From assembly GCF_001889545.1 (NCBI RefSeq), contig NZ_CP018194.1, positions 248,001 through 312,000 of the forward strand: a DNA stretch of 64,000 bases, in the 5' to 3' direction. Below are positions 32,131 to 46,608 of the stretch, piece after piece (position 1 is the first letter of the stretch; each line of letters begins with the position of its first letter). Made by a program: the position numbers and the translations under genes. Under the pieces are notes generated by a model. The model did no database searches. It was not told the DNA's origin and saw only the letters and a list, made by a program, of their open reading frames with translations. This DNA is from Granulibacter bethesdensis. Lineage in GTDB: Bacteria; Pseudomonadota; Alphaproteobacteria; Acetobacterales; Acetobacteraceae.

Positions 32131-33153
32131 TTAATGCAAGTCTTTTACAGATCGAATGGTCGGAGGGGCGCATTGATCGGGGGGAAGCGGGCGACGCTGC
32201 AGCAGGGCGCGTCGGCCTTCAGCCCATTGCCATAACAGCAGGGCGGGAATACCGATGGCCAGATCACGTCCGCGCTTGATCAGTGATACGGCAAGGGCGG
32301 CTTCTCCGCCGAGGCCGAAGAGGCCGCCCAGAAAGATCAGGCCGCCTTCCTGCACGCCAATTGCGTTCGGGATCATGAAGGCAAGGCTTCGTATGCCATA
32401 GAGCAGGCTGTCGATGGCAATGGCGCTGGTAACGGGCAGGTCAATGCCGAGCAGGCGGATGGTCAGCCATGTTTCCAGCCCGCTGATGATCCAGCACAGG
32501 AGATGCAGCGCTCCGGCCAGCAACAGGCGGGAAGGTGTTGCATAAATCTGGCGGATATCATCCTGCACCACGGCGGAGCGGGCCAGTGCCTGCCCCAGCA
32601 GATGGCGGGAGAGGGATGCCCCGATCCGGTCGGTGCCCTTCAATCCTCTGGCTTGCAGAATAATGAACAGGGACACCAGTACGCCCATGCCCGATACGGC
32701 GTAGAGCAGGGGTGTGACCAGCCCGCTATCGGGGCGGATCCATGACAGCAGGGTGAGGCCGATCAGGGTGTAGATCAACTGTGCCACCAGTTCCGTCGTA
32801 ACGTCGACGACGGTGGATGCCGCGGCAAAAGCCCCGGGAATGCCGGCCAGCGTTGCTGCCCGTCCGCCCAGCACGTAGCCGCCCAGCTGTGACAGGGGCA
32901 GGGTTTCGGCGGCTGAATCGCGGATCAGGCGCCCCCATGCGAACTGCCATGGCCGCCCTTTGTTCCGCCCCAGCAGGCACCATGCAAGGCCCATCAGACC
33001 GATCAGGATCAGATGATAAAGGACGATGATGCCGAAGCCTTCCCAGCCGATGGCAGTCAGGCTGTGCCAGACCGCCCCTGCATTCTGCTCCAGGACCAGC
33101 AGGGTGACGATGGCAAGCCCTGCCAGCAGGCCGAGAAGGACGGGGGTGTTCAT
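32131..33153 (-). CDS. hpnL: HpnL-like membrane protein (lysylphosphatidylglycerol synthase TM-domain family)
   Basis: A 340-residue protein with about eight transmembrane helices belonging to the UPF0104/LPG-synthetase membrane domain family. The RLIRDSAAETLPLSQLGGYVLGGRAATLAG region and SLLYGIRSLAFMIPNAIGVQEGG are what I associate with the hopanoid-associated HpnL group. HpnL proteins occur with hopanoid genes and are thought to act in lipid transfer or flipping; biochemical activity is not settled. No squalene/hopene cyclase is in the window. The start ATG at 33153 follows the ferritin-like gene stop by 10 bases, so the two are an operon next to the sphingolipid island. Confidence 0.78.
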   Translation of the reverse strand: MNTPVLLGLLAGLAIVTLLVLEQNAGAVWHSLTAIGWEGFGIIVLYHLILIGLMGLAWCLLGRNKGRPWQFAWGRLIRDSAAETLPLSQLGGYVLGGRAATLAGIPGAFAAASTVVDVTTELVAQLIYTLIGLTLLSWIRPDSGLVTPLLYAVSGMGVLVSLFIILQARGLKGTDRIGASLSRHLLGQALARSAVVQDDIRQIYATPSRLLLAGALHLLCWIISGLETWLTIRLLGIDLPVTSAIAIDSLLYGIRSLAFMIPNAIGVQEGGLIFLGGLFGLGGEAALAVSLIKRGRDLAIGIPALLLWQWAEGRRALLQRRPLPPDQCAPPTIRSVKDLH

Positions 33154-33163
33154 GGCGGTCCGG

Positions 33164-34150
33164 CTAAGCCGCTGCTTTCTGCTTTGGTTTGCGTATGAAG
33201 CGGCAGGCCAGCCGGGTCAGGGCTGGCATGGTGGTGGGGCGGCGCAGGCGTTGGTCATAACCGGCAAAGCGGCGGTCATTTTCGGACAGGCACAGCTCCA
33301 TCAGCTCCCGCACACTGACATCGACGTCACTGACGGCTTTGGTGCCGGTGACGGTGAAATTATTATCCTGTGCTTTGGCGGCTTTTCCGTCGCCATCCAT
33401 GCCGCGCGCCAGTCCGATCCGTTCCCAGCCCAGGAACACCCACACGGCAGCCACCTGCATTTCAAACCAGATCCGGCGCCAGATGGGCAGGTTACGGCGA
33501 TGTGCCGCCAGCCAGTTGGCGAACAGCAGGATATGTCTGCATTCCTCCTGCATGACAGGCTCGAATGTATCGACCAGCTCGGGCGGGAAGAAGCCGGATC
33601 GCTGCGCGACCGCGAACAGGCCGAACGCGAAGAAGCTGTCGATGCATTCACTGAAACCCGTGACCAGATAAGCCCACTCCGTATGTTTCGGCGGAGGGTA
33701 GGGCGGCTCCGGCTCCAGCACGATACCGTATGCCTGCACCAGGTTGGACAGCACTACCTTGTGCCGCCCTTCCTCCCATCCGTTCAGGGCGATGGCTTCC
33801 CGCCAGGCCGGATCGCGGAGGCTCTCGGCATAGGATGCCATGCGGATGCGCGCCTTGCCTTCTGTCTGAACGGCGATGTCCCAGATCGGCAGGCTGGTCA
33901 GCCGGTCCCGTTCCTCATCGCTCAGCTTCGGCCAGTCGATGATGGTTGGTTTGTAGGGGTTGAAGGTCTCCAGAAACATGCGCAGCGTCGCCTGTTTGTG
34001 GGCTTCAGAGCCAGGGGTGAGCTTGCCCTTGAAAGGGCTGACCCAATGCCGGGCCGCCTGATCGGCAGCCGCGATGATCCCGGCATCGTCTGCGCCGCTG
34101 CTGGCAAGCTTAAGACCGCTGGGCGGAGGAGAAAGTTCGGAAAGGGACAT
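33164..34150 (-). CDS. Ferritin-like diiron-carboxylate protein
   Basis: A 328-residue soluble protein, mostly helical. Two E-E-x-x-H type motifs are visible: GWEEGRHKVVL (about residue 130) and MQEECRHILLF (about residue 210), the pattern of diiron oxygenases and ferritin-like enzymes in which two Glu and one His per half coordinate iron. Substrate is unknown. The position between HpnL-like and fatty-acid-hydroxylase genes suggests a lipid hydroxylation or desaturation step, which is inference. A longer frame reaches 34321 but its extra 57 residues look non-coding; ATG 34150 starts MSLSELSPPPS. A Fur-box-like sequence lies upstream at 34393-34407. Confidence 0.7.
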   Translation of the reverse strand: MSLSELSPPPSGLKLASSGADDAGIIAAADQAARHWVSPFKGKLTPGSEAHKQATLRMFLETFNPYKPTIIDWPKLSDEERDRLTSLPIWDIAVQTEGKARIRMASYAESLRDPAWREAIALNGWEEGRHKVVLSNLVQAYGIVLEPEPPYPPPKHTEWAYLVTGFSECIDSFFAFGLFAVAQRSGFFPPELVDTFEPVMQEECRHILLFANWLAAHRRNLPIWRRIWFEMQVAAVWVFLGWERIGLARGMDGDGKAAKAQDNNFTVTGTKAVSDVDVSVRELMELCLSENDRRFAGYDQRLRRPTTMPALTRLACRFIRKPKQKAAA

Positions 34151-34392
34151 GCGGGCGAGAGACTCCTGACGCCGGACGTTATCCGCGGATGAGGATGGTG
34201 GGAATAGCAGGCTCCCGTCACTGGCGTATGATGCACCTGAGGCTCTGACTATTAACAGGAGTGCGGCAGGGAGGCCAAATCCATGCCGCCGCTCTATCGG
34301 GAAGAGGGCATGGGAAGACATCCCCGTCCGCCAGGGCCAATGCGGGCAACTGTCTCCAGAAGGCTGGCAGCCACCTTTATGTCAGCATATCA

Positions 34393-34407
34393 TGATAATG
34401 ATTCTTA
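34393..34407. promoter_or_regulatory. Fur-box-like sequence
   Basis: TGATAATGATTCTTA matches the 7-1-7 Fur consensus (TGATAAT-N-ATTATCA) at 12 of 14 defined positions. It is 243 bases upstream of the diiron-protein ATG and 249 upstream of the hydroxylase GTG. Match by eye only. Confidence 0.4.
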
Positions 34408-34534
34408 GAAAGGTGAATTACCTGCGGACGTATGTCAAACCTGTTCTGGTACATGTGACAGGCTTATGTCATATGCGCAGAATGCATTGACCCGAGACTG
34501 TCATCTGAAAGGGACACAGCTTATTACCTGTCTG

Positions 34535-34550
34535 CTGACCGCTCGGTCAG
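34535..34550. promoter_or_regulatory. Perfect palindrome, TetR-family-type operator
   Basis: CTGACCG-CT-CGGTCAG is an exact 7-2-7 palindrome. The GACCGNNCGGTC core resembles operators of many TetR-family repressors that respond to acyl-CoA or drugs. It lies 105 bases upstream of the hydroxylase start; no TetR gene is in the window. Confidence 0.5.
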
Positions 34551-34655
34551 AGCGATGGAGTACCAACGCATTCCTTGGATGACAGAGCGCATCGCGCTGA
34601 TGGCCATTCTGTCGGCCTGATGTGGTCATGCCAGGTATTGAAGGGGGACAAATCG

Positions 34656-35423
34656 GTGGGATGGGGCAGGCTCTGGGGCGGCCGAAGCTATGATCTGGGC
34701 AAAATGACCTTGCCCGAATTATGGATCGCCTATTTAACCTATCCGGCGATACAGCTTTACTTTGCCCTGATGGCAGGCTGTGCGCTGCTGGCGGCTATCT
34801 TTTATCAGGGCGCGGGCGGCGTATTGCTGGGTGTGCTGGCTGCGATCCTGATCTATCCCTTTGTCTGGTACGGCATTCACCGCTTTATCCTGCATGGTCG
34901 TTGGCTCTATCGCATGCGCTGGACAGCCCGGCTCTGGAAGCGGGTGCATTTCGATCATCATCAGGATCCGCATCGGCTGGAGGTGCTGTTTGGTGATCCC
35001 CTGAATACCATTCCGACCATGGCAGTGATCACGGTACCGGTCGGCGCATGGTTGGGCGGTATGGCAGGCGCTGTCTCGGCCTTGGGTGGGGCGCTGATGA
35101 TGACATGCGTCTATGAGTTCTTTCATTGCATCCAGCATCTGAACTACAAGCCGAAATCACGTATTCTCCAGTATATGAAGCGTGTACATCTGCTGCATCA
35201 TTTCCATGATGAAAGCGGCAATTACGGCATCATCACCTTTCTGCCGGATATTCTGGCGGGCACTTATTACCGGGATACCCGGGCTCGGCCACGCAGTCCG
35301 CATGTGTTCAATCTGGGTTATGATATAGAGGAGGCACGCCGCTATCCATGGGTGATGCAGGCCACGGGGGCTCCCCCGCGTGACCGTCCTCTGCCTGCAT
35401 CGGCGCTGGCGAAGCGGGTATGA
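34656..35423 (+). CDS. Fatty acid hydroxylase / sterol desaturase family protein
   Basis: A 255-residue integral membrane diiron enzyme. The histidine clusters typical of the superfamily are present: HRFILH (about residue 75), HFDHHQDPH (about 102), HCIQHL and HLLHHFHDE in the C-terminal third, between four hydrophobic segments. Such enzymes hydroxylate fatty acids or sphingoid bases at the membrane; acetic acid bacteria are known to make dihydroceramide with 2-hydroxypalmitate, so acyl 2-hydroxylation of ceramide is the favoured role. GTG 34656 is chosen because AAGGGGG lies about seven bases upstream; the frame begins at TTG 34575 and has ATGs at 34620 and 34704. The stop overlaps the GNAT gene start (ATGA). 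Confidence 0.85.
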   Translation: MGWGRLWGGRSYDLGKMTLPELWIAYLTYPAIQLYFALMAGCALLAAIFYQGAGGVLLGVLAAILIYPFVWYGIHRFILHGRWLYRMRWTARLWKRVHFDHHQDPHRLEVLFGDPLNTIPTMAVITVPVGAWLGGMAGAVSALGGALMMTCVYEFFHCIQHLNYKPKSRILQYMKRVHLLHHFHDESGNYGIITFLPDILAGTYYRDTRARPRSPHVFNLGYDIEEARRYPWVMQATGAPPRDRPLPASALAKRV

Positions 35424-36574
35424 TCTCCCCTTTCATCAATCCGGTTTCAGACATTGAGGTCATCCCTGTGCGCAGCAAAGCGGACAGGGAGCGTTTCATA
35501 GCGTTTCCCGACCGGCTGGCGGTTGCGGATCCCTGTTATATTGCCCCCCTCCGGATTGATCAGAGAATGTTGCTGTCGCAGTCCCGGAACCCGTATTTCC
35601 GCCATGCAGAGGCTGCGTTCTGGCTGGCCAGGCGCGATGGACGTGATGTGGGGCGTATCAGTGCGCAACATGACTCGCTGGAGCAAAACGGGGCCGGGCA
35701 TTTCGGCATGCTGGCGGCCGAAGATGATGCAGCCGTTTTTGCAGCCCTGCTCAGGACGGTGGAGGCATGGCACCGGGAACGGGGCGTGCGGGAGGTACTG
35801 GGGCCGTTCAATCTGTCGATCAATGAAACGGCAGGTGTTCTGATTGATGGCTTTGATACGCCGCCCATGCTGATGATGGGCCATGACCAGCCTTATACGG
35901 GATCACGGCTGGAAGAACAGGGCTATGAGAAGGCCCAGGATCTGCTGGCTTATCTCTATGACACGGAAGCGCCTTTGCCGGCTTTTGTCGGCAGGATGCT
36001 GAACCGGCCTTTGCCACAGGGCTTGTCGATCCGACACCTCGACTGGTCGCGTTACAGGGAGGAAGTGGCCTCGATCACGGCGATCTTCAATGATGCATGG
36101 TCGGATAACTGGGGGTTCGTGCCACTGACCGAGAATGAGACCGATGCCATGGCGCAGCAACTCAAACTGCTGCTGCATGATAAAATGATCTGGTTTGCAG
36201 AATATGAAGGCAAACCAATTGCTTTTATCGTGGCTCTTCCGAATCTGAACGAGGCCATCCGTGATCTTCACGGAAAACTATGGCCTTTTGGTCTTGTCAG
36301 ATTGCTGTGGCGTCTGAAAATACGCGGTGTCAAAACCGCTCGTGTGCCTTTGATGGGTGTCAGGCGCAGCTTCAATCATGGGTTGCTGGGCAGTCTGGTC
36401 CCTTTTCTGCTGGTTGATGCGGTGCGCCGGGAAAGCGCGAAACTGGGAATGTGTTCGGTTGAGCTTTCATGGGTTCTGGAAAATAATGATCCCATGCGGC
36501 GTATGAACGAGGCACTGGGCGGCAGTATCTACAAGACCTACCGTGTCTATCGAAAATCGCTTGTGGAGGAGTGA
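35420..36574 (+). CDS. GNAT-fold acyltransferase, candidate ceramide synthase
   Basis: A 384-residue protein with features of the GNAT-fold group often misnamed dATP pyrophosphohydrolase: FPDRLAVADPCYIAPLRID at the N-terminus, GPFNLSINETAG, GHDQPYTGSRLEEQGYEKAQDL, NDAWSDNWGFVPLT, and the C-terminal SWVLENNDPMRRMNEALGG followed by KTYRVYRK. The bacterial ceramide synthase of Caulobacter belongs to this kind of GNAT protein, and here the gene is within 3 kb of a complete serine-palmitoyltransferase operon. N-acylation of a sphingoid base is therefore the best inference, not proven. The ATG overlaps the hydroxylase stop (ATGA), so the two are likely made together. Confidence 0.75.
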   Translation: MISPFINPVSDIEVIPVRSKADRERFIAFPDRLAVADPCYIAPLRIDQRMLLSQSRNPYFRHAEAAFWLARRDGRDVGRISAQHDSLEQNGAGHFGMLAAEDDAAVFAALLRTVEAWHRERGVREVLGPFNLSINETAGVLIDGFDTPPMLMMGHDQPYTGSRLEEQGYEKAQDLLAYLYDTEAPLPAFVGRMLNRPLPQGLSIRHLDWSRYREEVASITAIFNDAWSDNWGFVPLTENETDAMAQQLKLLLHDKMIWFAEYEGKPIAFIVALPNLNEAIRDLHGKLWPFGLVRLLWRLKIRGVKTARVPLMGVRRSFNHGLLGSLVPFLLVDAVRRESAKLGMCSVELSWVLENNDPMRRMNEALGGSIYKTYRVYRKSLVEE

Positions 36575-36629
36575 GCGGACAATGTCGCATGTCAGCAGGT
36601 TGATTTTGGAAATTCTGCCGCCGACAACT

Positions 36630-36643
36630 TAAAAATATTTTTA
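36630..36643. repeat. AT-only 14-bp palindrome upstream of the inositol genes
   Basis: TAAAAATATTTTTA is a perfect palindrome 135 bases before the inositol-3-phosphate synthase start and 56 bases after the GNAT stop. It could be part of a promoter or a weak terminator; function is unknown. Confidence 0.4.
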
Positions 36644-36777
36644 GGCCACGATGCTTTCCACCACGATAAATCCGGTCATAGGATGGAAGTATTGTTGCCG
36701 TCTTGGTTGCCTAAAATTCTGCAAGCCGGGTGGACATATCAACTTCTCCTATACTTGCAGCCGTGAACAGGGAATTT

Positions 36778-37926
36778 ATGATTATGTCTGAAAAATCCAT
36801 CCGCATTGCGGTCGCAGGTATAGGCAATTGTGCCAGTGCCCTGATTCAGGGGCTGCATTATTATACGCCGGAGCGCTGTGATCAGGGTGTTGCCGGGTTG
36901 ATGCATACCGAGATCGGCGGTTTTCGTCCCTGTGATATACGGGTCGTTGCGGCGTTCGATGTTGATGCGCGCAAGGTTGGGCAGGATGTCAGCCGGGCGA
37001 TTTTTGCCAAGCCAAACTGTACTACCATTTTCCAGGCAGACATTCCTGATAGCGGCGTGATCGTGCAGATGGGACAGGTGCTGGATGGAATCTCCGACCA
37101 CATGGCGCATTATGCGGATGACAGGACGTTCCTGCGCGCGGATGTCCCTGAACTGAGCAAGGCCGAGATCGTCGCGGAACTGCGTCGCAGCGAGGCAGAG
37201 GTCCTGCTCAACTATATGCCGGTAGGGTCGGAGCAGGCGGCACGGTTCTATGCCGAATGCGCGCTGGAGGCCGGGATCGGCTTCATCAACAACATGCCGG
37301 TTTTCATAGCCTCTGACCCCGTTTTTGCGGCGCGTTTCAAGGCTGCCAACCTGCCCATCATCGGCGATGACATAAAATCCCAGCTGGGGGCCACGATTTC
37401 CCATCGTGTGTTGACCGATCTGTTTGCAAAGCGCGGGGTCAAGCTGCTGAGGACGTATCAGCTCAATACCGGCGGCAATACCGACTTCCTGAATATGAAA
37501 AATCAGGATCGTCTGGTCTCGAAGAAGAAATCGAAAACCGAAGCTGTGCAGGCCGTGGCCAAGAAGCGTATGGATGATACCGATATCCATGTGGGCCCGA
37601 GCGATTATGTGCCCTGGCAGAATGACAACAAGGTCTGCTTCATCCGCATGGAGGGGCATCTGTTCGGTGACGTGCCGATGAATCTGGAAATGCGTCTGTC
37701 GGTCGAGGATTCTCCCAACTCGGCCGGTGTGGTGATCGATATGATCCGCTGTTGCAAGCTGGCGCTGGATGCCGGAGTGGGCGGCGTTCTGGAAGGGCCG
37801 AGCGCCTATTTCTGCAAACATCCGCCTGTGCAGTTCACCGATGACGAAGCGTTCCAGGCGACCGAGCAGTTCATTCTGGATCATGCAGGGCTCAAGGCAA
37901 AGGTGAAGGTCTCTGTCGTCGCATGA
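36778..37926 (+). CDS. ino1: Inositol-3-phosphate synthase
   Basis: A 382-residue NAD-dependent enzyme that cyclises glucose 6-phosphate to 1D-myo-inositol 3-phosphate. The Rossmann motif is IAVAGIGNCASALIQG; GDDIKSQLGAT, LNTGGNTDFLNM and DSPNSAGVVIDMIRCCKLA are the signature segments of the short bacterial/archaeal-type enzyme. The start is uncertain by a few codons: ATG 36778 with AGGGAA just upstream, ATG 36784, or a GTG at 36730. The stop overlaps the next start as ATGA. Most proteobacteria lack this enzyme; beside two genes for activation and transfer it points to an inositol lipid. Confidence 0.93.
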   Translation: MIMSEKSIRIAVAGIGNCASALIQGLHYYTPERCDQGVAGLMHTEIGGFRPCDIRVVAAFDVDARKVGQDVSRAIFAKPNCTTIFQADIPDSGVIVQMGQVLDGISDHMAHYADDRTFLRADVPELSKAEIVAELRRSEAEVLLNYMPVGSEQAARFYAECALEAGIGFINNMPVFIASDPVFAARFKAANLPIIGDDIKSQLGATISHRVLTDLFAKRGVKLLRTYQLNTGGNTDFLNMKNQDRLVSKKKSKTEAVQAVAKKRMDDTDIHVGPSDYVPWQNDNKVCFIRMEGHLFGDVPMNLEMRLSVEDSPNSAGVVIDMIRCCKLALDAGVGGVLEGPSAYFCKHPPVQFTDDEAFQATEQFILDHAGLKAKVKVSVVA

Positions 37927-38639
37927 AATGCCTGATTGTTGCGGCCGGTCAGGGTGTCAGGCTGCGCGCGAAGGGGGCGCTGAAACCGCTTATCCCCCTT
38001 CGTGGAGTTCCGCTGATTGAATCTGTGATGACCCGCGCCATGCAGGCTGGCGTCGATGAATTTTTCGTCGTTAGCGGCTATCGTGGGGATGAGCTGAGGG
38101 CGTTCCTCAACAGCTATGCAGCACGGGAAACCGTTCGTGTCACGCATGTGATCAATCGTCAGTGGGATCGGGCCAATGGTTATTCCGTGACCATGGCCCG
38201 GCAGTTTCTGGATGATCGGTTTCTGCTGGTGATGTGCGATCATCTGGTGGACCCGGATCTGATCCGTGCCCTGATCGCGCATGGCACGCCGGAGGATACG
38301 GTGACGCTGGCGGTCGATTACAATCTGGACAGCCCGCTGAACGATCCCGACGATGTGACGAGGGTTCAGGTCAAGGATGGCCGCATCCTCCATATCGGCA
38401 AGGTGATCCGTACATATAATGCCTACGATACGGGTGTTTTCCTGTGTACGCCTGCCATGTTCGCTGCGCTGGAAGAAAGTCAGGCGGCCGGGGATGACAG
38501 TATTTCCGGGGCGATGAACGTTCTGGCCGGCTGGGGCCAGGCGCATGTCTTTGATATAGGCGACCGCGTCTGGGTGGATGTCGATGACCCGCTGGCTTTT
38601 GGAAAGGCCGAGCAGTTGCTGGCGGAGGGGCGGCTCTGA
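37923..38639 (+). CDS. Sugar-phosphate nucleotidyltransferase, probable CTP:inositol-phosphate cytidylyltransferase
   Basis: A 238-residue MobA/GlmU-like nucleotidyltransferase. MKCLIVAAGQGVRLRAKG is the nucleotide-binding loop and LKPLIPLRGVPLIESV supplies the conserved Lys and Pro; MCDHLVDPDLI has the metal-binding Asp, and WVDVDDP near the end has the second. The order inositol-3-phosphate synthase, nucleotidyltransferase, CDP-alcohol phosphotransferase mirrors the archaeal/thermophile di-myo-inositol-phosphate pathway, where this enzyme (IPCT) makes CDP-inositol. Substrate identity here is inferred from that order. It overlaps the inositol synthase stop by four bases and its own stop overlaps the next start (CTGA). 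Confidence 0.82.
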   Translation: MKCLIVAAGQGVRLRAKGALKPLIPLRGVPLIESVMTRAMQAGVDEFFVVSGYRGDELRAFLNSYAARETVRVTHVINRQWDRANGYSVTMARQFLDDRFLLVMCDHLVDPDLIRALIAHGTPEDTVTLAVDYNLDSPLNDPDDVTRVQVKDGRILHIGKVIRTYNAYDTGVFLCTPAMFAALEESQAAGDDSISGAMNVLAGWGQAHVFDIGDRVWVDVDDPLAFGKAEQLLAEGRL

Positions 38640-39535
38640 ACGCCATTCCACCCCCCTCGACCTATGCGCGCCCACAGGCTGAGCCAGTTCGCCGGACGAC
38701 CGAGATCGAGGAAGCTACCAATCGCTGGATCGTGCATCCTCTTGCGGCAAAGCTGGTGCCGATCTGTGCGCGTCTGGGCATCCATCCGAATGCTGTTTCG
38801 CTTAGCGGCATGATCTGCGGTGTGGCTGCCGGTTTTGCCTATGCGCAGTATCCGCGCCTGCCTTTTATCATCTTTGGTTTTTTGCTGATGGTGGCATGGC
38901 ATGTGCTGGATGGAGCAGATGGTCAGCTTGCCCGCCTGACCTCAAAGCAGTCCGAGCTTGGCAAATTACTGGATGGTATCTGCGATTATATCACTTTTAT
39001 CGCGGTTTATATTGGACTCGGCTTTTCTCTGACGCCGCTTCATGGTGGCTGGATATGGGGGCTGATTGCGCTGGCGGGCATCGCGCATGCGGTGCAGGCG
39101 GCCTCGTATGAGGCACAGCGACAGGATTATGAGGCGTGGGGCAAAGGCTTGATTCATAAACGCTTTACTGTGTCTGCGTCAGGCGGAGGCTGGTTATATG
39201 CAGCCTATCTGCGTCTGCAATGGATGGTGGCGGGGGATATAGTGGCACTGGATCGGGTCATGGCGGATGCCATGATGCATGATCCCGCGCAGAGTTCGTT
39301 TTTACAGGCCCGCTATCAGGAGATTTTTGCAGCGCCTGTACGCCGCTGGGGGGTGATGTCGGCCAACTGGCGGACGATCAGCCTGTTTATATTCTGTTTG
39401 ATCGGCCTGCCAGCGGGTTATTTTCTGATGGAGATCATTGGCTTCAGCATGGTCTGTGCGATGCTGCTGCGTGCCCAGCGGCGTCGTCGCGCCGCGTTTG
39501 TGGATATGATCCGTTCTGCCAGCCTGCCAGCCTGA
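38636..39535 (+). CDS. CDP-alcohol phosphatidyltransferase family protein
   Basis: A 299-residue integral membrane enzyme with about six helices. The catalytic CDP-binding motif D-G-x2-D-G-x2-A-R-x8-G-x3-D-x3-D is complete (DGADGQLAR, D92 onward, then GKLLDGICD). It moves a phospho-alcohol from a CDP carrier to a hydroxyl. The first ATG/GTG-type start is GTG 38732, but the frame upstream encodes conserved-looking residues (EIEEATNRWIVHPL) and has no ATG, GTG or TTG before the previous stop. CTG 38636 overlaps that stop as CTGA and is preceded by GGAGGGG at ideal distance, so CTG is the probable start. With CDP-inositol as donor, the acceptor could be ceramide, a glycerolipid or inositol. Confidence 0.83.
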   Translation: MNAIPPPSTYARPQAEPVRRTTEIEEATNRWIVHPLAAKLVPICARLGIHPNAVSLSGMICGVAAGFAYAQYPRLPFIIFGFLLMVAWHVLDGADGQLARLTSKQSELGKLLDGICDYITFIAVYIGLGFSLTPLHGGWIWGLIALAGIAHAVQAASYEAQRQDYEAWGKGLIHKRFTVSASGGGWLYAAYLRLQWMVAGDIVALDRVMADAMMHDPAQSSFLQARYQEIFAAPVRRWGVMSANWRTISLFIFCLIGLPAGYFLMEIIGFSMVCAMLLRAQRRRRAAFVDMIRSASLPA

Positions 39536-39551
39536 CAGGCTCCGCCACCCT

Positions 39552-40751
39552 TCAGAGCGGAAAGCCTATGTCGGCGGCGGCAGCCTTGAAACGTGCGATG
39601 GCGTTGCCAATCATCTGTTCTGTGTGGCTGGCCGTCACGCTGGAACGCAGCAGAGGATGGTCATCCGGCGTTGCGGGTGGCAGGGACAGATTGACATAAA
39701 CTCCACGTGCCAGCAGCGCATTCCAGAAAGCGATGGCGGTGGGAATATCCGGCATTGTCACTGCTACGATGGGACTGACCTGCGGTCCCACTGTGAAACC
39801 GGCCTGTTTCAGACCGCCATGGAGTGTTTCGGCATTGTGCCGCAGCGTTGCCTGCAACGCCGGCCTTTGCTGCATCTGCCGCAGGGCGGACTGGACGGAC
39901 GCAATCACCGAGGCCGGTAATGAAGCGGTAAACATATAAGGGCGGCAGGCAACACGCAGAATGTCGAAGCCGTCTATGTCGGTCACGCAGAAACCGCCGA
40001 CGCTGCCGAGACTTTTCGAGAATGTGCCGACGATGAAATCGGTATCAGCCTCCACTTTCTGTGCTTCCGCCAGCCCGCGCCCACGGGCGCCAAGCACACC
40101 GAGCGAATGGGCCTCATCCACCAGAAGCCATGCACCGGCCTCGCGTTTGACAGCGGCAATCTCGGCAAGGGGACAACTGTCGCCGAGCATGGAGTAAATG
40201 CCTTCGACCACCACCAGCTTTGCGCCCGGTGTGCCATCCAGACGGCGCAGACGGCGGGCCAGATCTTCCGGATCGTTGTGACGGAAACGGATCACCTGCG
40301 CCTGACCAAGGCGGCTGCCATCATAGATGCTGGCATGGCTGTCAGCATCCAGCAGCAGATAGTCATCCTTGCCTGCCAGCGTAGAGAGAATGCCGAGATT
40401 GGCCTGATAACCGGTGCTGAACACCATGGCATGTTTGCGGCCATAGAATGCAGCCAGCTCATGTTCCAGTGCGGTGTGCAGTGCTGTGGTGCCATTGGCG
40501 ATACGGGAGCCGGTGGTGCCGGTTCCATGCTCCCGCACCGCCTCGGCGGAAGCGTTTATTCCGGCCGGGTCCAGATTGAGACCAAGATAGTTGTTGGTCC
40601 CGAACAGCAGGGTTGGCTGTCCATTGATCATGCCTTCACTGGCCGAGGGGCCTGGCTCGATCACCACGCTGAACGGATCATGCCCGGCGGCGGTCAGGGC
40701 GCGCCGCGCTTCGGCGAGGGGAGCGAATTTGGCGAGAATGGAACGGCTCAT
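39552..40751 (-). CDS. spt: Serine palmitoyltransferase (AONS family)
   Basis: A 399-residue PLP enzyme of the alpha-oxoamine synthase family. The Schiff-base Lys lies in GTFSKSLGSVGGF (about residue 246), the motif that separates bacterial serine palmitoyltransferase from KBL/AONS; DADSHASIYDG has the His that stacks on PLP, and LLVDEAHSLGV the pyridine-binding Asp. It condenses L-serine with an acyl thioester to give 3-ketosphinganine, the committed step of sphingolipid synthesis, soluble in the cytosol. It is last in the operon ligase-reductase-carrier-synthase, the same set and order as in Caulobacter. It converges with the CDP-alcohol phosphotransferase, 16 bases between stops. Confidence 0.93.
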   Translation of the reverse strand: MSRSILAKFAPLAEARRALTAAGHDPFSVVIEPGPSASEGMINGQPTLLFGTNNYLGLNLDPAGINASAEAVREHGTGTTGSRIANGTTALHTALEHELAAFYGRKHAMVFSTGYQANLGILSTLAGKDDYLLLDADSHASIYDGSRLGQAQVIRFRHNDPEDLARRLRRLDGTPGAKLVVVEGIYSMLGDSCPLAEIAAVKREAGAWLLVDEAHSLGVLGARGRGLAEAQKVEADTDFIVGTFSKSLGSVGGFCVTDIDGFDILRVACRPYMFTASLPASVIASVQSALRQMQQRPALQATLRHNAETLHGGLKQAGFTVGPQVSPIVAVTMPDIPTAIAFWNALLARGVYVNLSLPPATPDDHPLLRSSVTASHTEQMIGNAIARFKAAAADIGFPL

Positions 40752-40794
40752 AAGAAATCCGGGAACGCTGGAGATAAGGAAGAGGGCGGTGTCT

Positions 40795-41046
40795 TCAAGG
40801 CGCGGCGGTTAACTCGGCCAGACAGGCGGCCAGATCGTTGATGGTGCGGATTCCTGCCAGTCGGTCCAGCGGCACGGAGACATCAAGACGATCTTCGATG
40901 TCCATGACGAAATTCATGACAGCGAGGGAGTCCAGCCCGAGATCATCGACGATCACCGTTTCTCCGTTCACCGGCTTCGCCGTTTTGGAGCGGGCAGCCA
41001 GCGTATCAATGATCAGAGCTTTGATGGAGGACAGATCGGTGCTCAT
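40795..41046 (-). CDS. Acyl carrier protein of the sphingolipid operon
   Basis: An 83-residue acidic helical protein. DDLGLDSLAVMNFVMDIEDRL contains the phosphopantetheine Ser (about residue 39) followed by the acidic recognition helix. It is a dedicated carrier between the acyl-AMP ligase and serine palmitoyltransferase genes, so it probably presents the palmitoyl thioester to the synthase. It is distinct from housekeeping AcpP, which typically has GADSLD and stands near fabD/fabF. Gaps of 43 and 54 bases to its neighbours are consistent with one operon. Confidence 0.9.
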   Translation of the reverse strand: MSTDLSSIKALIIDTLAARSKTAKPVNGETVIVDDLGLDSLAVMNFVMDIEDRLDVSVPLDRLAGIRTINDLAACLAELTAAP

Positions 41047-41100
41047 GAGAGGTGGCTCCGTGGACGATCGGTGTGGTGGGTTGATATCTGGATCATGTCT

Positions 41101-42072
41101 CTAGCGGGGAGCGTGCGCCGGGGCCAGCCAACCCGCGGCACGATACCATGCGACCGTGCCGGAAAATCCATGATCAAGGGAGATACGGGGCCGGGCAATG
41201 GTATCGGGCAGTAATTCAGCCGGGGAGACCGACCAGTCGGGATGCAGCATCTCCCGGGCCTTGCCCGTATTGAAAATGGCGGGTCGGCGGGAGAGCAGAC
41301 CGTAAAGACTGCCGGCCAGCCCGGCCCCCCATATGGAGGCCGCCGGCAGCCGGACATAGCGGGGATGGTTGCCGAGCGCCTGCGCGGCGGTCTGCATGAT
41401 CTCCTGCGGTGTATAACCTTGCGGGTTGCCATCAGCGAGCGTGCAGAGAGAGGGCGGTGCCGTGTGCACGGCCAGAGCCGCGATCGCATCGGCGGCATCA
41501 GCAACATGGATCATGGCGATTCTGGAACGCGGATGGCCTGCGACAGGTACGATCCCTGCCGCGGCGCTCCTGAAAATGGACAGGGTGGCGGTATCCCACG
41601 GGCCATAAATGACCGGTGGGCGCACGATGCACACATCGCCGTTGAAGCCGTCACGCAAAGCCTGTTCTCCGGCGGATTTGCTGGCGGCATAGGCGGATAG
41701 ATGCGGCGTCCGTGCGGCAAGGGAGGAGATGCCGATCAGCCGTGCCGCCGGTGTGCAGCGTTGCAGCATGGAGGCGACCATGGCCGCGCCATCACGGTTG
41801 ACAGCCAGAAATGCTTTGCGTGAACGTGCCCGCACCAGCCCTGCCAGATGCAGGACCACATCAGCACCCGTCAGCAGACGTCGCAGCGCGGTTTCATCCG
41901 ACAGATCGCCCGGAACAGTTTCGATCTCTCTGTCCCTCCACAGCGGATGCGGTTCGGGCCTGCGGATCAGGGCGCGGACGTGAAATCCGCGCTCTGCCAG
42001 AGCAGCCACGGTATGGCAGCCCAAAAACCCGGTGGCCCCTGTTACCGCCGCGATGGGTCTTCGGGCCATCAT
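41101..42072 (-). CDS. NAD(P)-dependent reductase of the extended SDR family (CerR-like)
   Basis: A 323-residue Rossmann protein. VTGATGFLGCHTVAALAERGF is the cofactor motif; YAASKSAGE gives the catalytic Tyr and Lys; VRPPVIYGPWD is the epimerase-type substrate loop. In Caulobacter the corresponding gene (cerR) reduces the 3-oxo group of the sphingoid base or ceramide. The same gene neighbours occur here, so that role is inferred. It starts with ATG 42072, nine bases after the ligase stop. Confidence 0.85.
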   Translation of the reverse strand: MMARRPIAAVTGATGFLGCHTVAALAERGFHVRALIRRPEPHPLWRDREIETVPGDLSDETALRRLLTGADVVLHLAGLVRARSRKAFLAVNRDGAAMVASMLQRCTPAARLIGISSLAARTPHLSAYAASKSAGEQALRDGFNGDVCIVRPPVIYGPWDTATLSIFRSAAAGIVPVAGHPRSRIAMIHVADAADAIAALAVHTAPPSLCTLADGNPQGYTPQEIMQTAAQALGNHPRYVRLPAASIWGAGLAGSLYGLLSRRPAIFNTGKAREMLHPDWSVSPAELLPDTIARPRISLDHGFSGTVAWYRAAGWLAPAHAPR

Positions 42073-42081
42073 CCAGCCCGT

Positions 42082-43830
42082 TCAGGCGACGGAGGAGACA
42101 GGATCGCTCTCGAAAGCGCCAGCCAGCAGCATCTGCCTGGCCCGTGCGCGGCTGAGCTTGCCGGAGGAAGTTTGTGGCAGGCTGCGCGGCGGCACCAGAA
42201 TGACGGATACCTCTACGCCATGCTGGCGCAGGAACAGGGAAGCCGCTTCCTGTTGAAGGGCCTCCCGTGCCGCCGGATCGCTGAGCCTGCATTGCAGCAG
42301 CGCCACAACTTTTTCCTGCGCGTCATTGTCGATGGAGAATACCACGACATCACGGCTGCGCAGGGCAGGAATATGGCTCTCGGCCGACCATTCCAGATCC
42401 TGCGGCCAGATATTGCGACCATTGACGATAATCAGATCCTTGGCGCGTCCGGTGACGACAATCTGCCCGTTCAGCAGATAGCCGAGATCACCGGTATTGA
42501 GCCATCCATCAGCCGAGAGCACCGCTGCGGTTGCTTCGGGCTGGGCGAAGTAGCCGGTCATGATGCTCGGCCCCCGCGCATAGATCACGCCCACGCGCCG
42601 CTCCGGCAGGACGGTTCCATCCTCGCCACGTACCTCGATGGCGTAGCCGGGCAAAGCAGGGCCGCACAGGACAAAGTCGCGGCCCTGACCGGGGTGCTCC
42701 TCTGGTACGCTGGCAAGGGCGAGTCCCTGATGCTCCAGCGGTCCGCGCGCCACGACATCGGTATGCAGCCCCTCACCATGTGGGGAGAAGCTGAGGGCCA
42801 GTGTGACCTCGGCCATGCCATAGCTGGGGACAAAAGTCCGATCACTGAAACCCCGTGTTGCGAAGCTTGCTGCGAAGTCGCGCAGAACCTGCGGGCGGAT
42901 CATGTCGCCGCCGATCCCGGCGATGCGCCAGCTGGACAGATCCAATGTTTCCGGTGCGCTTTCAGCCCGGCGGGCGCACAGCTCATAGCCGAAGGAAGGG
43001 CTGTAGGAGAGCGTGCCACGATTGCGGCTGATCAGATCCAGCCAGACCAGCGGACGGCGTGCGAATTCCCGCGTTGGCAGAAAATCGACTGAAATCTGGC
43101 AGGTCAGCGGGGTCAGCAAAAAGCCGACCAGCCCCATATCGTGATACAGCGGCAACCAGGAAACGCCCCGATCCCCATCCCTGAACGCCAGCCCGTGCTG
43201 GCTGATAGCGGCGGCGTTGGCCATGGCGGCGCGCTGTGTGACGGCCACGCCGAGCGGAAACCGGGTGCTGCCGGAGGAAAACTGTAGATAGGACAGCGCA
43301 TCCGGATCAATCACCGGCAGGTCCATGCCTGGGACCGGCATGGTGTGCAGCATGGTGGCGGTGCCGGTGAAGACGAGGTTCAGACCCTCGGTCGCTTCCT
43401 GCAACCATTCGTGCAGCAGATCGGGCGCAAAAGCGGCGCTGGCCTGTGCGCTTTCGATCATGCGGCGGAGATTGGCGATATATCCTTCCCGTCCGGCAAA
43501 GGCGGCGGGCAGCGGCAGGGGGGCGGGCACCAGCCCGGCATACTGGCAGGCCCAGAAGATGCGGACGAAATCACCGTCATTTTCGGCAATCAGCGCGATG
43601 CGCTCACCCGGATTCAGACCGAGGGCCAGCAGGCGGCGGGCATCATCCTGGGCCTGACGACGCAATGCCCGATAGGGCAACGCTTCCTGTAACACACCGC
43701 GTCCGGAGTAGAAGTTCAGCCCGGCTTCTCCGGTGGCGGCATAATCCAGCGCATCGGGCAGGGTGGAAAAATCAGCAAGCCGACGGGGAGTGCCAGGGTC
43801 TGACGGTGTGGGGATGACGGAATGATGCAC
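42082..43830 (-). CDS. Fatty acyl-AMP ligase / acyl-ACP synthetase
   Basis: A 582-residue ANL adenylating enzyme. YLQFSSGSTRFPLGV is the P-loop-like motif, SWLPLYHDMGLVGFLL and VPSYGMAEVTLALSFSP the family signatures of the FAAL type, and WLNTGDLGYL with VNGRNIWPQDLEW closes the core; LPQTSSGKLSR holds the terminal catalytic Lys. It should activate a fatty acid as acyl-AMP and load it on the carrier protein encoded two genes downstream, feeding serine palmitoyltransferase. It is the first gene of the four-gene operon, so the promoter lies in 43831-43976. Confidence 0.88.
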   Translation of the reverse strand: MHHSVIPTPSDPGTPRRLADFSTLPDALDYAATGEAGLNFYSGRGVLQEALPYRALRRQAQDDARRLLALGLNPGERIALIAENDGDFVRIFWACQYAGLVPAPLPLPAAFAGREGYIANLRRMIESAQASAAFAPDLLHEWLQEATEGLNLVFTGTATMLHTMPVPGMDLPVIDPDALSYLQFSSGSTRFPLGVAVTQRAAMANAAAISQHGLAFRDGDRGVSWLPLYHDMGLVGFLLTPLTCQISVDFLPTREFARRPLVWLDLISRNRGTLSYSPSFGYELCARRAESAPETLDLSSWRIAGIGGDMIRPQVLRDFAASFATRGFSDRTFVPSYGMAEVTLALSFSPHGEGLHTDVVARGPLEHQGLALASVPEEHPGQGRDFVLCGPALPGYAIEVRGEDGTVLPERRVGVIYARGPSIMTGYFAQPEATAAVLSADGWLNTGDLGYLLNGQIVVTGRAKDLIIVNGRNIWPQDLEWSAESHIPALRSRDVVVFSIDNDAQEKVVALLQCRLSDPAAREALQQEAASLFLRQHGVEVSVILVPPRSLPQTSSGKLSRARARQMLLAGAFESDPVSSVA

Positions 43831-43976: not shown

Positions 43977-44471
43977 TTAGTAGTATTTCATTCTGATATC
44001 GACCACGTTATCGCCGGGGTGGGTTGCAAATCTGACAGCTGACAGGTCAGGCGGCCCCAGCAGAAGAACCGGGTTGCGGGAGAAACCGAACCCTTCGGCA
44101 GGCAGGCCCAGCATGGTCGTGTCGAAATGACCGTTCCGGTTGGCGTCGTGAAACATGGCGACGGCGTAGAATCCGGTTGCGGGCAATGCGATGCAGGCAT
44201 GCGTCACAGGAAGGGAAACCGGCAGGTTGACACGGGCAAGTTTGTATTTTCCATCCAGAAAATGCGTGGCCTCATCCGGATAGACAGTGATGGTGATCAC
44301 GCCTTCTGCCGAATTCATGCCATGGACAGAGATCACAAGGCGTGTCTGGTGCGGATCATCCGGCTGACACTGATCGGTCCCTGCGTGACTATGGTGGGGC
44401 CAGATTGCCAGACTCAGAAGGACCAAAATACTAAAAAGCCGTTTCAATATGGCTGGTCTGTTCCGATCCAT
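43977..44471 (-). CDS. DUF2141 exported protein
   Basis: A 164-residue secreted protein with a clear signal peptide (basic RPAILKR, hydrophobic stretch, cleavage near HSHAG). The mature domain has the DUF2141 pattern: YAVAMFHDANRNGHFDT, GLPAEGFGFSRNP, GPPDLSAVRFAT. The function of the family is unknown; the fold is likely a beta-sandwich of the periplasm. Two cysteines (DQC, HAC) may form a disulfide. It is upstream of and codirectional with the sphingolipid operon, 146 bases away, and may share regulation. Divergent from the GT4 gene. Confidence 0.82.
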   Translation of the reverse strand: MDRNRPAILKRLFSILVLLSLAIWPHHSHAGTDQCQPDDPHQTRLVISVHGMNSAEGVITITVYPDEATHFLDGKYKLARVNLPVSLPVTHACIALPATGFYAVAMFHDANRNGHFDTTMLGLPAEGFGFSRNPVLLLGPPDLSAVRFATHPGDNVVDIRMKYY

Positions 44472-44648
44472 GACGCTGCTTCCTGCCAGTCTTGTGATGA
44501 AGTGCGACTTCCGGTTAGGTCTGACGGGTCGCCACCGCCTATCATGCCGGGTATTTCTGCATGAGCAGGCTGTACGGGCATGGAGCGGTCAAGTCCAGCC
44601 GACCGCAGGAGAGAGTCGAGGAGGAAGGGAAACGTCCTCCGGCATGAA

Positions 44649-45785
44649 ATGCGTCAGATCCTGATTTTCCGCCATAACCTGTTCCGTGTTTCGGAGCCGT
44701 TCGTCACCGAACCGGCTGAAGCACTGACGCGCTATCGCCCGCTTTACATGGGCTGGTTGCGCTATGGGGAGGCACCGTCGGGGGCGGAGTCCATTGTGCT
44801 GGGGCGTTGTTCCGGTACGCGTCCTTCTGCCGCGGTAGGCTGGCAGATGCTGTCCCGCGATCCCGGCCCCTATCTGCGGCGGCTGGGTGAGCGCAGGCCA
44901 TCGCTGATTCATGCCCATTTCGGGGTTGATGGCAGCTATGCCCTGCCGCTGGCCAGGCGGCTCGGTGTGAAGCTGATCACGACATTTCATGGATTCGATG
45001 CGACCCTGTCTCTGGCCGGGCTGATGACATCTCCTCCCTGGGCCTGGTACGCGCTGATGCGGCGCAGACTGGCGCGGGAGGGCGCGTTGTTCCTCTGTGC
45101 CTCCGCGTTTATTCGCCGGAAAGTGCTGGCACTGGGTTTCCCCTCTGAGCGCACGCGGGTTCACTATATCGGTGTTGATTGTGCCGGAATCATGCCTCGT
45201 GTGCCGGAGGAGGAGACCAGAACCATCCTGCATGTCGCCCGGCTGGTGGACGTCAAGGGCACAGCTTCTTTGATCCGAGCTTTTGCCCGGCTGAATGGCC
45301 GGCATAAGGATGTCAGGCTGGACATTATCGGGCAGGGGCCGTTGCTGTCGGGGTTGCGTGATCTGGCGCGCGCGCTTGGAGTTGAAGCGCGGGTGCGGTT
45401 TCTGGGTGCATGGCCGCATGAGGCTGTTCTGCACCACATTCGGCAGGCGGCGATGCTGGTGCAGCCGAGCGTGCGGACCCATAGCGGGCGGGAGGAAGGG
45501 TTGGGCATGGTGCTGCTGGAAGCCGCGGCAAGTGGCGTGCCTGCGATCGGCTCGCTCAGTGGAGGTATACCGGAAGCCGTCCGGGATGGTGAAACCGGTT
45601 TCCTGACGCCGGAGCGGGATGTGGAGGCGCTGGCCCGCCGGATGAATGATCTGCTGGATGACGACACGCTTCGCCGGCGCATGGGCCATGCTGCCCGGCG
45701 CATGGCCGAGCAGGAATTCGACCGCCAGCGTCAGACGACCCGTCTGGAAACCCTGTATGATTCGGTGCTCGACCATGCAGGCTGA
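44649..45785 (+). CDS. GT4 glycosyltransferase
   Basis: A 378-residue GT-B glycosyltransferase. The acceptor domain starts QILIFRHNLF and has HAHFGVDGSYALPLAR and TTFHGFDAT; the donor domain has ILHVARLVDVKG, and EEGLGMVLLEAAASGVPAIGS with the E-x7-E nucleotide-sugar motif. Such enzymes retain configuration and include GlcNAc transferases to inositol phosphates (MshA) and lipids. The next gene encodes a PIG-L deacetylase, so an N-acetylhexosamine donor is likely; this is inference. ATG 44649 is chosen over ATG 44580, whose extra 23 residues are Arg/Ser-rich. It overlaps the deacetylase gene by 11 bases. Confidence 0.87.
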   Translation: MRQILIFRHNLFRVSEPFVTEPAEALTRYRPLYMGWLRYGEAPSGAESIVLGRCSGTRPSAAVGWQMLSRDPGPYLRRLGERRPSLIHAHFGVDGSYALPLARRLGVKLITTFHGFDATLSLAGLMTSPPWAWYALMRRRLAREGALFLCASAFIRRKVLALGFPSERTRVHYIGVDCAGIMPRVPEEETRTILHVARLVDVKGTASLIRAFARLNGRHKDVRLDIIGQGPLLSGLRDLARALGVEARVRFLGAWPHEAVLHHIRQAAMLVQPSVRTHSGREEGLGMVLLEAAASGVPAIGSLSGGIPEAVRDGETGFLTPERDVEALARRMNDLLDDDTLRRRMGHAARRMAEQEFDRQRQTTRLETLYDSVLDHAG

Positions 45786-46608
45786 AGCGGATGTGGTTCC
45801 AGAGGGAGCAACGATCGTCGTCGCACACCCGGATGATGAATGTCTCTGGCTGAGTTCCGTACTGCCGACGGCCCGTCATGTGGTGTTCGTATTCGGCGAT
45901 TCCTTTACACGTCCGCAGCGTGCGGCCGCCCGGCGGCGGGCGGTGGCGGCCTTGCATCTGCCGGGGCTGGTGAATCTGGCGATCCCCGAAAGCGGGGCAG
46001 GATTCAAGGTTGACTGGGCGGATGAGCATCTCGACACCGTGCTGACCCGGTTCGGTATTACGATCAACGAACCAGCGGCGCGGGCGCGCTACGAGGCCAA
46101 TTTTGACCGCGTGCTTGCCGGGTTGAGGCCGCATCTGACCGGCGCGCTGCATGTCTGCACCCATAATCCATGGGGTGAGTATGGTCATGCCGAGCATTTT
46201 CAGGTTCATCGTGCCGTGATGCAGTTGCAGGCGGAGCTGGGCTTTACGGTTTGGTACAGCAATTACGTGGATGCGCGCAGCCTGACCCTTGCGGCCCGGA
46301 TTGGCGCATCTCCCTGTTATGCACAGCGAAGGACTGTCCCCACGGCGCCGGGGGTTGCGCGGGGGCTGATGCGGGTTTATCGCCGCTACGGAGCCTGGAC
46401 CTGGACACGCTGGCATGTCTGGCCGGAGCGGGAGACGTTGTTTTCGGTTCCGCCGGAAGGGTGTCACTCGACACTGGCGGGCGAGGCATTGCTGGATGTC
46501 GCGGGATTACGCCTGTGGCCACCGCCCTGGCGCCGTGCTCTTCGTGTTCTGCCGGCTCAGCCGCCTTTATCGTCCCTGTTTCGCCCGCCGGTGGCGGGGC
46601 AGGCATAA
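45775..46608 (+). CDS. PIG-L family N-acetylglucosaminyl deacetylase
   Basis: A 277-residue zinc-dependent deacetylase. VAHPDDE (about residues 16-22) gives the zinc His and catalytic Asp; HNPWGEYGHAEHFQVHR gives the second zinc His pair. The family includes GPI-synthesis PIG-L, mycothiol MshB and teicoplanin deacetylases: all remove acetate from an N-acetylhexosamine attached to another group. The start overlaps the glycosyltransferase stop by 11 bases, so the two proteins probably act in sequence: add a GlcNAc-like sugar, then deacetylate. No signal peptide, so cytosolic. Context with inositol genes 6 kb away suggests an inositol-containing acceptor as one option. Confidence 0.88.
   Translation: MQAEADVVPEGATIVVAHPDDECLWLSSVLPTARHVVFVFGDSFTRPQRAAARRRAVAALHLPGLVNLAIPESGAGFKVDWADEHLDTVLTRFGITINEPAARARYEANFDRVLAGLRPHLTGALHVCTHNPWGEYGHAEHFQVHRAVMQLQAELGFTVWYSNYVDARSLTLAARIGASPCYAQRRTVPTAPGVARGLMRVYRRYGAWTWTRWHVWPERETLFSVPPEGCHSTLAGEALLDVAGLRLWPPPWRRALRVLPAQPPLSSLFRPPVAGQA

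Follow-up and report, generated by a model that had tools for sequence, protein, structure and literature searches.

A convergent ceramide and inositol gene island in Granulibacter bethesdensis, predicted to build and export an inositol-phosphate sphingolipid

We analyzed a 64,000-nucleotide stretch of Granulibacter bethesdensis (NZ_CP018194.1, positions 248,001 to 312,000; hereafter the window), part of a 2.74 Mb single-contig host genome, and identified a gene island in which a ceramide operon converges with genes for an inositol-3-phosphate synthase (MIPS), a nucleotidyltransferase (NTP transferase) and a CDP-alcohol phosphotransferase (CDP-OH), the last three being referred to as the trio. 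The island is real, conserved and under-described, as its gene content, homology, linkage and co-occurrence with other genes show. We propose, with a probability of about 0.6, that it builds and exports an inositol-phosphate sphingolipid: CDP-inositol would give phosphoinositol directly to dihydroceramide, and the product would be glycosylated and exported. The substrates, the ceramide acceptor and the glycan are predictions.

Two convergent gene sets

The genes of the two sets, in window coordinates, were as follows.

34575 (TTG) or 34656..35423, plus strand: fatty-acid/ceramide hydroxylase family protein (PF04116, 70.8 bits)
35420..36574, plus strand: GNAT protein, ceramide synthase candidate (44% identity to E. 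coli BL21 YghO over 375 residues)
36730..37926, plus strand: inositol-3-phosphate synthase (MIPS/Ino1), true start uncertain (PF01658, 121.7 bits)
37923..38639, plus strand: NTP transferase, predicted CTP:inositol-phosphate cytidylyltransferase (best PDB matches 4jd0, 2xme and 4mnd)
38636..39535, plus strand: CDP-OH, predicted CDP-inositol:dihydroceramide inositolphosphotransferase (PF01066, 50.8 bits against a cut-off of 22)
39552..40751, minus strand: serine palmitoyltransferase (SPT; NF047599, 638.8 bits, cut-off 500)
40795..41046, minus strand: acyl carrier protein (ACP), AcpR type by its position between the SPT and SDR genes (PF00550)
41101..42072, minus strand: SDR reductase, CerR-like (PF01370)
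42082..43830, minus strand: fatty acyl-AMP ligase, AasR-like (NF006624, 904 bits, cut-off 600)

The ceramide operon (43830-39552, minus strand) and the set running from the hydroxylase to CDP-OH (34575/34656-39535, plus strand) were convergent, with a gap of 16 bases between 39535 and 39552. A first-pass annotation of this DNA had described a complete sphingoid-base operon on the minus strand and a five-gene set on the plus strand, 16 bases apart, and every gene that it named was found on the strand given. Passages of PMC9386255 name a five-gene ceramide set in E. coli BL21, to which we assigned the BL21 genes by gene name and order. All five ceramide genes of the window were homologous to this set, with identities of 48% for the ligase, 46% over 37 residues for ACP, 51% for SPT, 36% for SDR and 44% for GNAT/YghO, and by homology they correspond to the rhodobacterial set (aasR, acpR, spt, cerR/epi, cerS/aca). 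The SPT-ACP-SDR gene order was also that of E. coli BL21. The GNAT protein lay barely above the PF00583 cut-off (22.9 vs 20.7 bits).

The closest solved structure to MIPS was Ino1 of M. tuberculosis (1gr0, 395 bits, E 4e-117), and the protein scored under the NCBIfam TIGR03450 cut-off (431.5 bits vs 638). Two of the best PDB matches of the NTP transferase, 2xme and 4mnd, are CTP:inositol-1-phosphate cytidylyltransferases by chain name; the third, 4jd0, was deposited as 'nucleotidyl transferase' and is called a Thermotoga inositol-1-phosphate cytidylyltransferase in a passage of PMC12275187. The protein reached 115.8 bits with NF041135, whose cut-off of 580 was set for a bifunctional protein. 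With its closest solved relatives of this type and MIPS adjacent, the gene probably encodes a CTP:inositol-1-phosphate cytidylyltransferase, a family to which CpgD, the maker of CDP-glycerate, is also said to belong in part of the text of PMC12275187. In a wider scan with one genome per species we detected 155 CDP-OH relatives, 80 of which were kept as named loci (L numbers). MIPS stood directly upstream (intergenic distance below 250 bases) of the NTP transferase gene in all 56 named loci that had both. Since MIPS adjoins the cytidylyltransferase gene, the predicted product is CDP-inositol.

CDP-OH belongs to the CDP-alcohol phosphotransferase family, as judged from its PF01066 match and the motif DxxDGxxARx8GxxxDxxxD, whose eight named residues were invariant in the 41 rows of our CDP-OH alignment (A2). 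The protein scored far under the cut-offs of NF040950 (54.8/180), NF045883 (40.5/170) and NF052561 (26.5/350), and it falls outside the phosphatidylinositol-phosphate and archaetidylinositol-phosphate synthase equivalogs. The location and strand in the first-pass annotation (38636-39535) were correct, but there was no ordinary start codon at 38636: CTG was the sole start-like codon there, and no ATG, GTG or TTG that could begin the conserved N-terminus of CDP-OH was present upstream of 38732. This CTG overlaps the stop codon of the NTP transferase gene and was conserved in 3/3 genomes of the genus; it is possibly a non-AUG start with translational coupling. The NTP transferase gene was directly upstream of CDP-OH in 47/80 loci, elsewhere in the stretch in 17 and absent in 16.

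Co-occurrence of the ceramide and inositol genes

We searched 200 genomes of the acetic-acid-bacteria family (Acetobacteraceae in the wide sense) for orthologues of CDP-OH (E<1e-60), NTP transferase (E<1e-20), the radical SAM enzyme (E<1e-60) and the PIG-L-type protein (E<1e-25), the last two being encoded further along the island, and scored SPT as present when it exceeded the curated NCBIfam cut-off. A CDP-OH orthologue was identified in 15 genomes; the NTP transferase occurred in the same 15, and all of these had MIPS, which was present in 46 of the 200 overall. SPT was above the cut-off in 14 of the 15 trio genomes as compared to 63/200 overall (Fisher p 3.6e-7; none of our Fisher tests was corrected for relatedness among the genomes). 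The first-pass annotation had named co-occurrence of the two gene sets in relatives as a check on its reading, and these counts bear it out. A sixteenth genome (G029) encoded a 38% relative of CDP-OH together with SPT and gave no match to the NTP transferase or MIPS; the surroundings of its gene were masked.

The radical SAM orthologue was found in 12 genomes, all with the trio. Because the gene lay ~113 kb from the trio in G042 and on another contig in G187, this association is not due to linkage alone. The PIG-L orthologue was found in ten genomes, eight of them with the trio; the other two were G154, where the match had 42% identity, and G198, whose genome is 67% complete.

Beyond the family, an SPT match was present inside the stretch in 29 of the named loci (28 at 100 bits or more and one 49-bit piece at a contig end). 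Of the remaining 51 loci, 50 were submitted to a genome-wide SPT search, 49 were searched and 44 had SPT above the cut-off, so that 73 of the 78 testable loci were in SPT genomes. The five misses were the genomes of L082, L114, L117, L133 and L132. In L114 the SPT was split into two fragments, the genomes of L117 and L133 measured 1.5 and 1.2 Mb, and L132, a Rhodothermia genome that holds a 40% relative of the window CDP-OH protein, gave an SPT match of 393 bits. Near CDP-OH we counted matches of at least 100 bits for the hydroxylase, GNAT, ceramide and DUF2141 proteins, and of at least 80 bits for the glycan and export proteins described below; by this measure hydroxylase relatives occurred in 14/80 loci and GNAT relatives in 24/80. 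Trio genes were also detected in a Geothrix metagenome-assembled genome labelled Acidobacteriota (L072) and in a Nitrospirales one (L111, Nitrospirota), which may reflect horizontal transfer or misbinning.

In a tree of CDP-OH proteins, the side that includes the window comprised 55 rows, each accompanied by ceramide or inositol genes. The other side held 26 rows, consisting of Emcibacteraceae, Kordiimonadaceae and long-branch rows; 13 of these had neither gene type, and 11 of the 13 were Emcibacter-type. The branch of the window row itself is long, and a single pair, L132 with L135, was flagged for long branches. At ten Emcibacter-type loci (L134, L122 and eight others) with no MIPS or NTP transferase gene nearby, a gene of ~450-470 codons recurred, directly upstream of CDP-OH in L122 and L134; a Pfam scan of the L134 copy gave no match.

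Linked glycan and export genes

The island extended beyond 43830 to 52712. The named genes of the first-pass annotation belong to it, and the linked genes between 44580 and 52712 had been overlooked. These genes, and one DUF2141 gene that lies before them, were as follows.

43977..44471, minus strand: DUF2141 protein (PF09912; at least 100 bits in 9/80 loci)
44580..45785, plus strand: GT4 glycosyltransferase a (PF00534; at least 80 bits in 29/80 loci)
45775..46608, plus strand: PIG-L/LmbE-like de-N-acetylase candidate, start by eye (AHPDDE and GHxEH motifs; at least 80 bits in 20/80 loci)
46625..47620, plus strand: radical SAM enzyme, substrate unassigned (PF04055; 18/80 loci)
47623..49062, minus strand: Wzx/MOP-type flippase, start by eye (PF13440, 155 bits; at least 80 bits in 20/80 loci)
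49055..50341, minus strand: GT4 glycosyltransferase b, start by eye (PF00534; at least 80 bits in 33/80 loci)
50494..51648, plus strand: LptF2, second LptF paralogue, start by eye (PF03739; at least 80 bits in 46/80 loci)
51645..52712, plus strand: LptG2, second LptG paralogue, start by eye (at least 80 bits in 46/80 loci)

The solved relatives of GT4 glycosyltransferase a include an inositol-3-phosphate glycosyltransferase as well as BshA and PimB'/PimA. The PIG-L-type protein has the motifs AHPDDE and GHxEH, each conserved in at least 19 of 20 aligned rows, and a search of the PDB with this protein gave no match at E 0.1. Three of its relatives scored 29.6, 30.5 and 26.3 bits with PF02585, the first two above and the third below the cut-off of 28.2. 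The PIG-L gene of a congener (G100:C1:288733-289596) matched in two pieces, as if frameshifted. A further glycosyltransferase, of the DXD type and PF04488 family (scanned in L059 only; L059:6774-7778), recurred near the trio in 21/80 loci.

An LptF/LptG pair adjoins spt in E. coli BL21, and the island LptG reached 151 bits with that spt-linked LptG vs 46 bits with the host's other LptG. Since a separate LptF/LptG pair elsewhere in the host genome precedes open reading frames (ORFs) that read by eye as lptD, surA and ksgA, we took the island pair as the second one. That the island pair is the canonical one, as its NCBIfam names suggest, was considered and set aside given the position of the other pair and the recurrence of the island pair beside the trio. 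A second pair, linked to the trio and apart from the canonical pair, fits the sphingolipid-linked LptF2/LptG2 permeases, and its transport role is a prediction. In Nitrospirillum viridazoti CBAmc (L067) each of the 17 parts listed above had a match within ~18 kb, in a different order, and among the loci generally the gene arrangements vary while the gene set persists. Acidocella facilis ATCC 35904 (L062) and Gluconacetobacter diazotrophicus PA1 5 (L091) are other environmental strains that carry the island. The linked GT4, PIG-L, radical SAM, flippase and Lpt genes suggest a glycosylated, exported product.

At its other end the island is shorter than the 32131..43830 range of the first-pass annotation, which held only from 34575/34656 onward. 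The first two genes of that range (32131-34321), which encode HpnL and a second protein, of unknown family, are probably not pathway parts, as neither had a match near CDP-OH in any of the 80 loci. The second protein (33164-34321) had no Pfam match and showed two ExxH segments by eye. An HpnL/LPG_synthase_TM-type protein and a further match to a CDP-alcohol transferase are found close to its relatives of 54-56% identity (L052, L053, L054); because L052 also has a phosphoenolpyruvate (PEP) mutase-NTP transferase ORF and a thiamine pyrophosphate (TPP) enzyme, and L054 a class-V aminotransferase, these are probably phosphonolipid-type clusters. Elsewhere in the window, judged by eye, a set of three genes at 25713-31686 resembles an RND efflux pump with its outer-membrane factor and membrane-fusion protein, and 58276-60594 appears to encode a luciferase-like monooxygenase together with a sulfonate-utilisation-type ABC substrate-binding protein.

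The proposed route, competing routes and known systems

In the route that we propose, the acyl-AMP ligase, carrier protein, SPT, SDR and GNAT proteins would make dihydroceramide, which the hydroxylase would hydroxylate. MIPS would convert glucose 6-phosphate to inositol 3-phosphate and the NTP transferase would convert this to CDP-inositol, from which CDP-OH would transfer phosphoinositol onto the ceramide hydroxyl with release of CMP. Phosphatidylinositol, an inositol-phosphate-lipid phosphatase and an AUR1-like step would all be unneeded. A ceramide rather than diacylglycerol acceptor is predicted: CDP-OH adjoins the NTP transferase gene and is nearly confined to SPT genomes, which points to a sphingolipid. 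1D-myo-inositol 3-phosphate is the same compound as 1L-myo-inositol 1-phosphate, and in a direct route the phosphate would stay where MIPS put it, giving a linkage that is the mirror of that in eukaryotic inositol phosphoceramide. In glycosylphosphatidylinositol (GPI), mycothiol and bacillithiol synthesis a GT4 enzyme acts first and a PIG-L-type deacetylase next, and for this reason we propose that the GT4 and PIG-L-type enzymes probably put an amino sugar on the inositol. The radical SAM enzyme and the second GT4 may then modify or extend the glycan; the deacetylase and radical SAM steps of hopanoid cyclitol ether synthesis may offer an analogy for the former. The flippase and LptF2/LptG2 would carry the lipid towards the outer membrane.

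Several observations weigh against this route. The trio genome G132 (L047) had neither SPT nor acyl-AMP ligase above the cut-off; its CDP-OH gene carries an in-frame stop, which fits decay of the trio after ceramide loss, although this is a single case and could stem from a sequencing error. At 100 bits, 46/80 stretches lacked any ceramide gene; ten of these were Gluconacetobacter loci with SPT elsewhere in their genomes. Sixteen of the 80 loci, 11 of them Emcibacter-type, had CDP-OH but no NTP transferase gene despite the presence of at least 1.5 kb of upstream sequence; since CDP-OH stands there without that gene, the donor may differ at these loci. The window PIG-L-type protein scored 27.6 bits with PF02585, just under the cut-off of 28.2. 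The island Lpt pair, the one scored against these models, exceeded the ordinary NCBIfam cut-offs (LptF TIGR04407 263/230, LptG TIGR04408 306/240). The host genome also has two DAGK-type kinases and, away from the island, a membrane PAP2 protein, which leave room for an indirect route, and the best-scoring models for CDP-OH were of enzymes that use inositol phosphate and a CDP-lipid.

These best scores, far under the cut-offs for the window protein and obtained with archaetidylinositol-phosphate synthase and then phosphatidylinositol-phosphate synthase models (41/41 members matched each at E 1e-4), would be expected if CDP-OH joined inositol phosphate to CDP-diacylglycerol or CDP-ceramide and the NTP transferase served another purpose; the two DAGK-type kinases are in keeping with this. 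We consider it very improbable: CDP-OH and the NTP transferase occurred in the same 15 genomes, all with MIPS, and the latter had inositol-phosphate cytidylyltransferases as its top three PDB matches. Moreover, the island proteins scanned with Pfam, to which all our statements on families in the island refer, included neither a CDP-lipid synthase family nor one of lipid-phosphate phosphatases. The other three CDP-OH proteins of the host genome were of the PgsA, ClsA/PgsA and PssA types by eye, without model confirmation, and a phosphatidylinositol synthase among them was set aside.

A better contender, though still an unlikely one, is a Kennedy-type route in which CDP-inositol and diacylglycerol give phosphatidylinositol, whose head group is then passed to ceramide by a phosphotransferase encoded outside the island. 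The membrane PAP2 protein noted above would be a candidate for this step; it is one of three PAP2 proteins in the host genome and membrane-type by eye. Passages of PMC9246714 propose such a route in silico for Bacteroides vulgatus and Prevotella, from CDP-inositol to inositol ceramide via phosphatidylinositol-diacylglycerol and a HAD protein, and word the product of the published CDP-inositol lipid pathway as dialkylether glycerophosphoinositol; the CDP-OH relative in Rhodothermia (L132) is in keeping with the latter. On the other hand, this detour would need a further transferase, the scanned island proteins included no HAD or PAP2 family, and near-complete presence in SPT genomes is not required of a plain phosphatidylinositol synthase.

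The trio could instead make another inositol product, such as the solute di-myo-inositol phosphate or an inositol-phosphate decoration of polysaccharide, lipopolysaccharide or hopanoid, its nearness to ceramide genes reflecting a shared cell-envelope region. Of the two halves of the bifunctional di-myo-inositol-phosphate enzyme, one is similar to the NTP transferase and the other to CDP-OH, and GT4, Wzx and Lpt-type neighbours are typical of polysaccharides. We regard this as quite unlikely, however, since the co-occurrence with SPT persisted where SPT lay outside the stretch, the gene set was constant while its arrangement varied, and the Lpt pair resembled the one beside spt in E. coli BL21 more closely than it did the host's separate pair.

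Some elements of direct transfer to ceramide have precedents. Judging by its title, a 2015 study by Jorge, Borges and Santos (doi 10.1111/1462-2920.12734) reportedly dealt with CDP-inositol-dependent inositol phospholipid synthesis, and its organism is said to be Rhodothermus marinus. The passages of PMC9246714 cite the 2015 work for CDP-inositol as a lipid head-group donor; its product differs from that predicted here, and the island genes go together with those for SPT and ceramide synthesis. The alternative cluster of B. vulgatus and Prevotella, compared by its description in these passages, resembles the island in having MIPS, an NTP transferase, a CDP-alcohol transferase and a CDP-inositol intermediate to inositol dihydroceramide, and differs in its phosphatidylinositol-diacylglycerol intermediate and its HAD protein; with no HAD protein among those scanned, the island is not a member of that cluster. 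This alternative route is described in part of PMC10191378 as predicted in silico, with full characterisation still pending. The B. thetaiotaomicron route (BT_1522-1526), characterised in PMC9246714 according to the same passages, shares MIPS, a CDP-alcohol transferase and the product inositol dihydroceramide, but proceeds from CDP-diacylglycerol and inositol phosphate through a phosphatase and BT_1522, and the island CDP-OH was far from its synthase model (NF052561, PIPSynBT1523). At the level of Pfam families, the island proteins scanned showed no phosphatase or phosphotransferase besides CDP-OH.

In Caulobacter a second LptC, LptF and LptG are encoded next to the sphingolipid genes, and a passage of PMC11324152 proposes that they are transporters. 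Going by excerpts of PMC11324152 and PMC12275187, the Caulobacter CPG/CPG2 phosphosphingolipid cluster has in common with the island the ceramide genes, LptF2/LptG2, a flippase, a cytidylyltransferase (CpgD) and a protein with a CDP-alcohol transferase domain (CC_1159). The head group there is phosphoglycerate, added via ceramide kinase, and no DAGK-type kinase was present among the scanned island proteins. A section of PMC12275187 hypothesises that CDP-glycerate from CpgD serves as donor in the formation of ceramide diphosphoglycerate; PMC11324152 never uses the word inositol. CDP-inositol is thus already known as a lipid donor, and CDP-activated head groups have already been proposed for ceramide lipids. 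The first-pass annotation had held direct CDP-inositol:ceramide transfer to be new; this fails for the donor, in print since 2015 and proposed for Bacteroidetes (PMC9246714, in the passages cited above), and stands, as a prediction, for a ceramide acceptor with no phosphatidylinositol step. New are this putative acceptor, the ceramide-linked alphaproteobacterial version of the system and the linked glycan and export genes. The literature surveyed by title and abstract opening, with most subscription journals outside the survey, reported no CDP-inositol:ceramide enzyme, no bacterial glycosyl-inositol-phosphoceramide and no inositol system tied to ceramide genes together with glycan and export genes.

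Inositol sphingolipids are major lipids in plants and fungi and have been described in few bacteria. The predicted island product is like those of plants and fungi, the route apparently different. Eukaryotic inositol phosphoceramide synthase works via phosphatidylinositol; if the acceptor of CDP-OH is ceramide, the island would encode a route that bypasses phosphatidylinositol, unlike both that enzyme and the Bacteroides pathway. The first steps of GPI and mycothiol synthesis (PIG-A/PIG-L, MshA/MshB) likewise use a GT4 enzyme and a PIG-L/LmbE deacetylase on an inositol phosphate compound, and the island differs in its predicted acceptor, inositol phosphoceramide, and in its added radical SAM enzyme. 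Going further, we tentatively suggest, at less than even odds, a bacterial glycosyl-inositol-phosphoceramide (GIPC) made by direct mirror-linkage transfer, given a GPI-like glucosamine by GT4 and PIG-L, remodelled in its sugar by the radical SAM enzyme and delivered to the outer membrane by LptF2/LptG2, which would be a bacterial lipid parallel to, and independent of, plant GIPC and GPI lipids, with a scattered distribution in Alpha- and Gammaproteobacteria. Another alphaproteobacterium, Novosphingobium acidiphilum, is reported in a passage of PMC9246714 to make an inositol-ceramide-like lipid and to have no homologue of either Bacteroidetes cluster; an island of the kind described here would be a candidate explanation for that lipid. 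With the GT4, PIG-L and radical SAM genes linked in one island, the idea of a GPI/GIPC-like glycolipid in bacteria is directly testable in culturable strains, both plant-associated and acidophilic.

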